From Poseidonibacter parvus (GTDB lineage: Bacteria; Campylobacterota; Campylobacteria; Campylobacterales; Arcobacteraceae): DNA of 64,000 nt. Shown piece after piece: positions 51,208-55,596 of the stretch. The translations under genes were made by a program, and so were the position numbers. Each line of letters opens with the position of its first letter. The first letter of the stretch is position 1. The notes beneath the pieces are model-generated. The model saw nothing but the letters and a program-made list of their open reading frames with translations, was not told the DNA's origin and did no database searches. The DNA is taken from NCBI RefSeq assembly GCF_001956695.1, contig NZ_CP019070.1, positions 248,001-312,000 of the forward strand, in the 5' to 3' direction.

Positions 51208-51257
51208 AAGGTTTATTTAAAATATAATTTGTAGTCAAAGAAATAGAAGTTTAAACT

Positions 51258-53896
51258 CTATTTCTTTGTATCTAATTCTTTTAATTTGTTTTTTAAAGCT
51301 TCAACTTCAAATGTCTTTTCTTTTTCATTTGAAATATCAACTAAAGTATGAATAATCTTTTTAACAGATTGTCCTTCGCTTTCTTTTACTGCTTTAGAGA
51401 ATGATTTAACCCATTTGTACTCATCTGAACTATTTAATACTCTTATTTCTAAATTGTATTCATCTATTTTTCCAAGAAGAAGTTTTTCATATAATCTTGT
51501 TCTTTTTTCTAAGTCATCTACATGAATTCTATTTTCATACCAAGCCATTATATCTCTTGTATTACTTTCTATATAATTCTTTTCAAATCCAAAGATTTCT
51601 GACCAATGTGTATTTAGATAAACATGTTTTCTTTCAACTACATCATATTCAAATATTCCAACTTTTGCTGAATTTAAAACAATTTGTAGTCTAACATTAG
51701 TGTTTTCAACGTCATCTTTTATTACTCACATTCTTTGTGCGTCTGTATCTCTTTCTTCGTACATAGCACGCATTTCTGTGTAAGCTGTTTGAAGTTCTTC
51801 ATTTGTAGATTGAAGTTCTTCATTTGTAGTTTCTAGTTCTTCGTTTGAACTTTGAAGTTCTTCATTAGAACTTTGAAGTTCTTCATTTAAACTTTGCATT
51901 TCTTCATTTGAAGTTTCAAGTTCTTCAATTACTGTTTGTAAATGCTCTCTTGTTCTTGCTAATTCTAAATTTAATCTTTCAACTTCTTCACTATTATTAT
52001 TTATATTATCAATAATGTCATAGCTTTTTAAATTTTCTTTTTCTTCTTCTTGAAAACAAACTAAAAATAAATCATTTGTAAGGGAATTATCTAGAGGAAC
52101 AATTACCATTCTTACAAATTTATTTTGTTCTGCAAGTGCTACTTTTGTAAATTGAGTTTTAACAATATTTGGATCTTTTTTACAATCGTGCAGTCCTGCT
52201 CTTAATTCAACTGATAAATCACTATGTATATTTTTAAATACATTTTGAGTCATTTCTCCTTCAGGGTGTACTAAATAAGGATTTCTACCTTTTATAAAAA
52301 TCATATCTGAAACATCATTTACAACTATACACATAGGCATTATATGTCTTTGAATATGATCAACCATCATTTCAGACACAGTTGGAATACTTTTATTGCT
52401 TTCTCTTTCAAGTTCATATCTTTTGTATGTAGTTGAAGCTTTGAATGATTTTGGCATTAATGGGGCTACTTTTTGTCCCATATACACGGCTTCATAGAGT
52501 TTCCATTTTTTATCGATAATTTTAAATTGATTATTAAAAGAGCCGATTGATTCTGATTTTCCTAAAAATAAAATACCTTTCTCATTTAATGAATAATGGA
52601 ACATTGGGAAAAGTCTTTGTTGTAGTTCTGCTGTAAAGTAAATTAAAAGGTTTCTACAAACAATTAAATCAAGTCTCATAAATGCTGGATCATTTGTAAT
52701 ATCATGCTTAGAGAAAATACACATATCTCTAATTGGTTTAATTATTTCATATTCATCATTTTTAACTGTAAAATATTTTTTTACAAAGCTTTTATCAATG
52801 TCAATTAATGCACTTTCTGGATATCTTCCCATTCTTGCAAAAGATGTAGATATTTCGTCAATATCTGTTGCAAATAATTGGATTTTATAATCTTCAAAGT
52901 CTTTATCTAAGATTTCACTTAAAACCATTGCAATTGTATAGGCTTCTTCACCTGTAGAACATCCAGGTGTCCAAATACGAATATGCTTATTATCTTTTCT
53001 TTTAATTAGTTTTTCAAGTTGATGATGAAGTTCTAAAAAAGCATCTTTATCCCTAAAAAATGACGTTACACCAATTAAAATATCATTGAAAAGTGCTTCG
53101 ATTTCTTCTGAGTTGTTTGTTATATGCTCTGAGTAAGTGCTTAAATTTGTAATTTTTAAAGCTGCCATTCTTCTTTGAATTCTTCTGTTTACAGTAGAGG
53201 ATTTATATAATGTAAAATCAATATTTTTATTTCTATGTAATTTTGCTAAAATATTTTTGTAAACTTGTGTTTCTTCGTTCATTATACTAGCAGGTTTATT
53301 TTTGTCAGGATAGTTTACAATTTCAGCTATTTCCTTTGCCATTACTTCAACATCCAAGATTAAATCTACATTTCCTGTATTAATAGCAGAATTAGGCATT
53401 CCATCATATTTAGAGCTTTGAGGTTGCTGTGCAATTGTAAAACCACCTTCAGCTTTAATAGCTCTAATTCCACGAGAGCCATCACTTCCTGTTCCACTTA
53501 AGATTATACCAATAGATTTGTTTTCTTTACTTGCTGCAATTGATTCAAAAAGAATATTTATAGAAGGTTTTGGACCATATGTTAATTGTTTAGGATCCAT
53601 TAATACTATGTGATTACCTTCTACTAAGATATTTTTATTAGGAGGACAAATATACATAATATTTGATTCTATTAATTCATTACTAACTGCTTCTTTAATT
53701 TTAATAGGAGAGTCTTTAGCTAGTAAATCAACCATCAAACTTTTATATGTTGGAGATAAATGTTGAGCAACAATATAAGCAAAGTTTGTATTGATTTCTA
53801 CATTTTTTAGAAAAGATTGCAATGCTTCTAAACCTCCAGCACTTGCACCAATTCCAATTACTATTAAATCATCATTTTTTCTTCTATCTTATCCAA
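51258..53896 (-). pseudogene. CheB-CheR-PAS fusion gene, broken by a frameshift and a stop
   Basis: The intended product is about 880 residues. A well-placed start exists at TTG 53896 (AGGAG nine bases upstream), but its frame runs into TAA after ten codons. Adding one base in the A6 tract (53875-53880) restores DDLIVIGIGASAGGLEAL and the CheB methylesterase (VAQHLSPTYKSLM, ILSGTGSDGSRG), then CheR (WTPGCSTGEEAYTIAM) and a NEEL coiled coil. An in-frame TGA at 51728-51726 then cuts off a PAS domain (LNSAKVGIFEYDVVE ... SFSKAVKESEG) that remains open to 51258. Either decayed, phase-variable, or two sequence errors. Confidence 0.85.
51790..51930 (-). repeat. 21-bp coding repeats (NEELQS coiled coil)
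   Basis: About six to seven imperfect tandem copies of a 21-base unit encode the heptad pattern (S/T)NEELQS/NEELET. It is a coiled-coil linker after the CheR domain, typical of CheB-CheR fusions. Confidence 0.85.
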
Positions 53897-53960
53897 AATA
53901 ATATTCTCCTTTTGTTGAATGTATGATACCATAACTTAGCTATTCAAAGCTTATTTATTC

Positions 53961-53966
53961 TATAAT
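53961..53966 (+). promoter_or_regulatory. -10 box of the cytoplasmic kinase gene
   Basis: TATAAT about 20 bases before the ATG at 53986, with AGGAG at 53976-53980 as the ribosome site. The short leader suggests that a start point lies about ten bases before the ATG. Confidence 0.45.
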
Positions 53967-53985
53967 AATTAAAATAGGAGAGTTC

Positions 53986-55596
53986 ATGAAATCTTTAAGA
54001 CAAAGAGCACTAGATGTATTAGAAAATAAAGAAGAAATTAATATAGACTCTATTGATATTAAAGAAGTTATAGAAGAACTACACGTAAACCAGATTGAAC
54101 TTGAGTTACAGAATCAAGAATTAAGAGATCAAGAAACTGTATTATTACAAGCAGAAGAAGAAGAACTTATGCTTCTTTTTATGAATGCCCCAATTGGTTA
54201 TCTTGTTTTAGATAATGAATATTATATTCATAGGTATAATAAACACGCTTTTGAAATTTTCAATTTTCTAGAAAGTAGAAGAAATATTTATTTTTTCTCT
54301 TTTTTTAAGAATATGAATCAGATGAATAGTTTTATTTCTTGGGTAAAAAGTAATAATAGTACTTTTTTTGATATATCAATCAAAAGTATAAAAGGTGAGA
54401 TTAAATGGATTAGAGTAACTCATGAAATTACAAAACTTAACAATAAAAGTATGTATCTTTTATCTGTTGTTGATATAACAAAAGAAAAAGAAAAAAAAGA
54501 GAAACTGCATCTTTATGATACTGCATTAGATAAACTACCTGTTTCTATTATTATCACTGATAAAGATGGTCATATTACATATGTAAATAAAGAATTAATA
54601 TCAAGTAGTGGGTATTCAAAAGAAGAATTAATAGGGGAGAGACCTTCTGTTTTTAAATCAGGATTTACAAGTCCTAAAGAGTATTCTGAAATATGGAATA
54701 GTATTTCAAATGGAGATACATGGACTGGGATATTAAAAAATTTATCAAAATCTAAAAAGATTTCTTGGATGGCAGTAGCAATTAGTCCAATTTTTGATGA
54801 AAAAAAGAATATTATAAATTACATAGCCGTTGAAACTAATATTGATGAAAAAATAAAAATGGAAGAAAAACTAAAAAAACAAGAAGATATTATGCTTGTT
54901 CAAGCAAGACATGCTGCAATGGGAGAAATGATTTCTATCATTGCTCACCAATGGAGACAGCCTTTATCCGTTATCTCGACAGCTGCAACTGGAATTAAAA
55001 TGCAAAAAGAATTTTATGCAATAAGTGAAGAAGATGAAATTAAAAGTCTTGATATGATTAATGAATCAGCGCAATATTTATCTGAAACTATTGAAGATTT
55101 TAAAAACTTTTTTAAAAATAATAAAATTCTTGCACAAACAAATGGAAATAAGATAATAGAAAAAATAAAGAAACTAAACTCTGAAACACTAAGAAGTAAC
55201 AATATTAATTTTAATATAAGCACTTCTGATACTTCTGATATTTTAACTTATGAGAATGAATTATTACAAGTTTTAATAAATATAATTAATAATGCAAAAG
55301 ATGCATTATTAGCAGCTACAGAGTTAATAGCTAATCCTTTTATTACGATAAAAATTTATAATCAAGATACTTCTTTAGTTTTGGAAATAGAAGATAATGC
55401 AGGTGGAATAGCAGAAGAAATTATGGATAGAATCTTTGAACCATATTTTACTACAAAAGGACCTGCAAGTGGTACTGGCTTAGGTCTTTATATTACAAAA
55501 ACTATTATTGATAAACATCTAAAAGGTTTAATCGAAGTTAAAAATACTGATTTAGGTGCATTGTTTATAGTAACTATTCCAAATTTAGAAAATTAA
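53986..55596 (+). CDS. Cytoplasmic PAS-PAS histidine kinase (orphan)
   Basis: A 536-residue kinase without membrane segments. An N-terminal helical segment with [19 protein letters not shown] leads to PAS 1 (about 60-165) and PAS 2 (about 175-295; [22 protein letters not shown]), then HisKA (His321 in [14 protein letters not shown]) and HATPase_c ([37 protein letters not shown]). The HisKA region is almost identical to that of the next kinase (55609-58065). No regulator lies beside it. Its divergent neighbour is the broken CheB-CheR gene. Confidence 0.9.

Follow-up and report, generated by a model that had tools for sequence, protein, structure and literature searches.

A probable recent pseudogene of the accessory CheB-CheR-PAS hybrid family in Poseidonibacter parvus

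We analysed a 64,000-nucleotide stretch of the Poseidonibacter parvus genome (the window, bases 248001-312000 of a single contig of 2,866,429 bases). Its minus strand carries a gene of the known accessory CheB-CheR-coiled coil-PAS hybrid family that is probably a young pseudogene, inactivated recently. Until then it would have encoded one protein of about 880 residues, in which methylesterase and methyltransferase domains were joined to a PAS sensor. With the frame broken by one base near the start, only 10 codons would be translated, and the PAS domain would be lost separately through a nonsense codon. Probably one lesion arose first and the other once selection had relaxed, and we infer that no useful product is made.

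Layout of the locus and its two lesions

The gene starts at a TTG (53896-53894, minus strand) preceded by AAAGGAG, a good ribosome binding site. The frame entered from this TTG and the CheB frame are one base out of register, and a run of six A (A6, 53880-53875) lies between them, as the first-pass annotation had described. The CheB frame then runs without a stop from 53888 to 51729, and a single in-frame TGA (51728-51726) separates this body from 155 further open codons that end at a TAG (51260-51258). At this base composition, the chance of an open frame is about 1e-6 for 155 codons and about 4e-28 for 720 codons. The features of the locus, with coordinates given in the window, are as follows.

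53986-55596, plus strand: intact divergent PAS histidine kinase gene of 536 aa (ORF and Pfam), a neighbour conserved in P. lekithochrous (synteny)
53897-53985, no strand assigned: intergenic region of 89 bases common with the divergent sensor kinase gene, holding the ribosome site AAAGGAG of the minus-strand gene
53864-53896, minus strand: TTG start and 10-codon frame (MDKIEEKMMI) to a TAA, read from the sequence
53875-53880, minus strand: A6 tract; the start frame and CheB frame fall out of register here or close by (sequence and orthologue comparison)
51729-53888, minus strand: open body of 720 codons, with CheB (aa 11-187), CheR_N (210-259), CheR (274-463), a linker and a NEEL coiled coil (about 641-709), from Pfam and orthologues
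51726-51728, minus strand: in-frame TGA, aligned with a serine codon of the P. lekithochrous orthologue
51261-51725, minus strand: 155 open codons 3' of the TGA, encoding a PAS_3 domain (Pfam) and sharing 50% identity with the orthologue (alignment)
51258-51260, minus strand: TAG, at which the reading frame naturally ends
51233-51268, minus strand: hairpin overlapping the TAG, a possible transcript end (fold z -4.5), which has no T run and so is absent from the terminator scan

The body encodes a CheB domain that covers the full Pfam profile (PF01339, E 1e-53) and has the motifs GASAGG, AQHLSP and GTGSDG, and in the same open frame are CheR_N (PF03705) and CheR (PF01739, E 2e-52). The PAS_3 match (E 3e-10) is located behind the TGA. 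The gene is thus a member of the CheB-CheR-PAS hybrids by descent, though not intact. We considered whether the PAS piece could be a separate protein and rejected this, as its first ATG (51548) falls within the PAS domain.

The gene had been described as broken at both ends. This holds for the 5' end, where the frame is broken, and not for the 3' end, because the TAG lies inside a strong hairpin and the end of the gene is not ragged and looks undamaged; what had been taken as the second broken end lies 155 codons further upstream, at the nonsense codon. Nor does the proposal of a deliberate truncation of the PAS part fit, given that the frame of the PAS part has stayed open and conserved and has its proper end. 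Recoding of the TGA as selenocysteine was also rejected: the fold z near it is 0.01, and the position is serine in P. lekithochrous and other residues in other relatives, with no cysteine in the nearest relative. Within the body, the codon repeats of the NEEL-type coiled coil form a strong inverted repeat (51847-51881), followed by T on the opposite strand, which was listed as terminator-like and is probably a by-product of the protein repeat.

Orthologues, selection and age of the damage

The closest named relative carrying the hybrid gene is P. lekithochrous A1R12. Its orthologue (992 aa, L006/L035) is a single 992-codon frame that is 76% identical over the body and adjoins the same divergent PAS histidine kinase; it has two PAS domains, unlike the P. 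parvus copy. The orthologue in a metagenome-assembled genome (MAG) of an uncultured Campylobacteraceae (858 aa, L007/L036) is also one uninterrupted frame, of 858 codons, with 62% identity. These hybrids of Arcobacteraceae and other Campylobacterota share the CheB-CheR order, the NEEL coiled coil and the catalytic motifs with the P. parvus gene, and differ from it in having one intact frame, which in P. parvus is interrupted by a frame break and by a nonsense codon. Among the 14 relatives examined, those with a readable start enter the GASAGG motif in frame from that start. Since the orthologue frames are intact at both sites, both lesions are derived in the P. parvus lineage.

Our literature search found no paper on the CheB-CheR-PAS hybrid family in Arcobacter. 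The F7 chemotaxis operon cheYARDB described for Arcobacter carries canonical CheB and CheR (PMC9321776), with the same catalytic domains as the hybrid, and the solved structures 1chd, 1af7 and 5ftw match. In contrast to the hybrid, which has no receiver domain and adds the coiled coil and PAS, the canonical proteins are encoded by separate genes and CheB has a receiver domain.

The body was reported as intact and under selection, and both points stand. Against P. lekithochrous, the body has a dN/dS of 0.16 (CheB 0.09, CheR 0.12) and the PAS part one of 0.36; these values are rough because synonymous substitutions are close to saturation. When the MAG orthologue is taken as the outgroup, lineage-unique changes in P. 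parvus and P. lekithochrous number 36 and 31 in the body and 13 and 11 in the PAS part, so this three-sequence comparison shows no excess of changes on the P. parvus lineage in either part. Such a balance would be seen if relaxed selection had acted too briefly to leave a mark, or if the damage were a sequence error. The low dN/dS of the body and the lack of acceleration indicate that, if the gene is dead, the damage is recent. It resembles young bacterial pseudogenes whose reading frame is broken in an A tract: a single-base break in an A run, an AT-rich genome and a body that is still conserved are common to both. It differs from the typical case in its second, independent nonsense lesion.

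Frame breaks elsewhere in the genome and the possibility of error

The main alternative is a sequencing or assembly error at the A tract in place of a real frame break. The start of the gene would then be intact and the TGA its one interruption; were the TGA an error as well, nothing in the gene would be broken. We consider this alternative unlikely, though it fits several observations. The body is otherwise under selection, and almost no further decay is visible: 720 and 155 codons remain open with the catalytic motifs in place, which is what an intact gene with sequence errors would also give. The assembly is a single contig and has one more gene in which a single base breaks the frame at an A tract, a kind of error that can be expected in some long-read assemblies.

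We compared genes from 784 kb of P. lekithochrous with 2.04 Mb of the P. parvus genome (461 genes, 154,535 codons). The survey raised 13 and 15 stop or frame flags, most of them at gene ends, where they reflect the choice of start or stop, and those far from the ends were read individually. The hybrid gene was flagged automatically through its TGA, and its frame break was read directly at the 5' end. Mid-gene frame breaks were found in 3 of the 461 P. parvus genes (the hybrid, a TonB-dependent receptor and a homologue of a 157-aa protein), and only the hybrid has a mid-gene nonsense codon. In the reverse direction, there were one or two such cases among 470 in P. lekithochrous. As the two numbers are similar, frame breaks are not unusually common in the P. 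parvus assembly.

Of the two other P. parvus cases, the TonB-dependent receptor gene (Plug and beta-barrel; G000:C1, about 1,836,991-1,839,158; L128:16991-19158) has its A-tract break near codon 59 and is intact in two congeners. The homologue of the 157-aa P. lekithochrous protein (G000:C1, about 1,254,528-1,254,535) is broken at a short TATTAC-like repeat. In P. lekithochrous, a gene for a thioredoxin-like protein (G001:C12, about 348,640-348,860; L149) has a TGA where P. parvus has a cysteine of the CxxC motif; this could be selenocysteine or a nonsense change.

The sole mid-gene nonsense codon of the comparison thus falls in a gene that also has one of only three frame breaks, and a TGA created by substitution is of another kind than a homopolymer error. 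With the nonsense codon taken as given, the chance that one of the three breaks would fall in the hybrid gene is about 1.9% by length, a figure to be read cautiously because the gene was chosen for its two lesions. It favours linked events, as would be expected once selection is lifted. With so few frame breaks and no other mid-gene nonsense codon, relaxed selection accounts better than two errors for a gene with two lesions, and the earlier suggestion of two assembly errors together is unlikely. If the frame break does prove to be an assembly error, the A tracts of this genome would be worth re-checking.

Residual expression, switching and loss in other genomes

Some protein could still come from the broken gene if the A tract allowed slippage or if translation re-initiated, giving a PAS-less regulator with CheR activity (or CheB and CheR activity) whose level the frame break would set; we consider this improbable. 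Slippage by RNA polymerase or the ribosome would give some protein ending at the TGA. An A precedes the AAA codon, so a -1 slip would keep its pairing, and transcription is known to produce single-base insertions at A/T runs. However, these climb steeply with run length, and none restoring a frame was found in a genome-wide study (PMC5574713). Six A is low in this dependence, the A6 slip site is not conserved among the orthologues compared, and the product would have no PAS domain. Slippage rescue on its own is accordingly very unlikely.

Phase variation, in which the length of the A tract would vary between cells and switch the gene on and off, had been put forward in combination with a nonsense variant, and we give it equally little weight. 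The tract is near the start, and the other A-tract break noted above is in a TonB-dependent receptor, a surface protein. Against this, A6 is short, and 388 of the 1577 ORFs of at least 150 aa (25%) have an A run of six or longer within their first 60 bases, which makes the tract unremarkable. The tract is also not shared by orthologues, and the nonsense codon would still remove PAS whichever way the switch stood.

The least probable reading, which we regard as close to negligible, is a deliberate remodelling into a CheR-only enzyme, with re-initiation at a TTG (53822) giving a 698-residue product without the CheB nucleophile and PAS: the CheR domain is intact and GGAGG lies 10 bases before this TTG, but GGAGG corresponds to codons of the conserved Gly-Gly motif, P. 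lekithochrous has the same GGAGG followed by TTA, which is not a start, and this form is absent at this locus in every close relative.

Recent decay, one of the options left by the first-pass annotation, is therefore the reading that we retain. It is consistent with the intact syntenic orthologue, with purifying selection until recently, with two lesions in one gene, and with the accessory distribution and independent loss of the hybrid, which is present in 24 of 104 genomes of the family. The orthologue in G080, an IS-rich complete genome of another genus (63% identity), is interrupted in its CheB part by an insertion of about 1.15 kb after residue ~73 (G080:C1, 3,014,000-3,015,149). A search of this insert for transposases of the rve, IS1595 and DDE_Tnp_1 families found none, although DDE_Tnp_1 matches number 54 in that genome. 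In G098, a more distant copy contains an in-frame TAA. Together with the independent G080 insertion, this indicates that loss of the hybrid is recurrent.

P. parvus keeps separate canonical genes for CheB (357-codon frame) and CheR (281-codon frame), both intact at 1.495-1.498 Mb, an arrangement in separate genes that the Arcobacter F7 operon also has. Because these are retained, and because the hybrid is absent from most relatives, its loss is presumably tolerated. With a conserved body, two fresh lesions and an independent break in another species, the locus is a clean small example of the loss of an accessory chemotaxis-like hybrid, and it suggests that Arcobacteraceae can dispense with the CheB-CheR-PAS hybrid.
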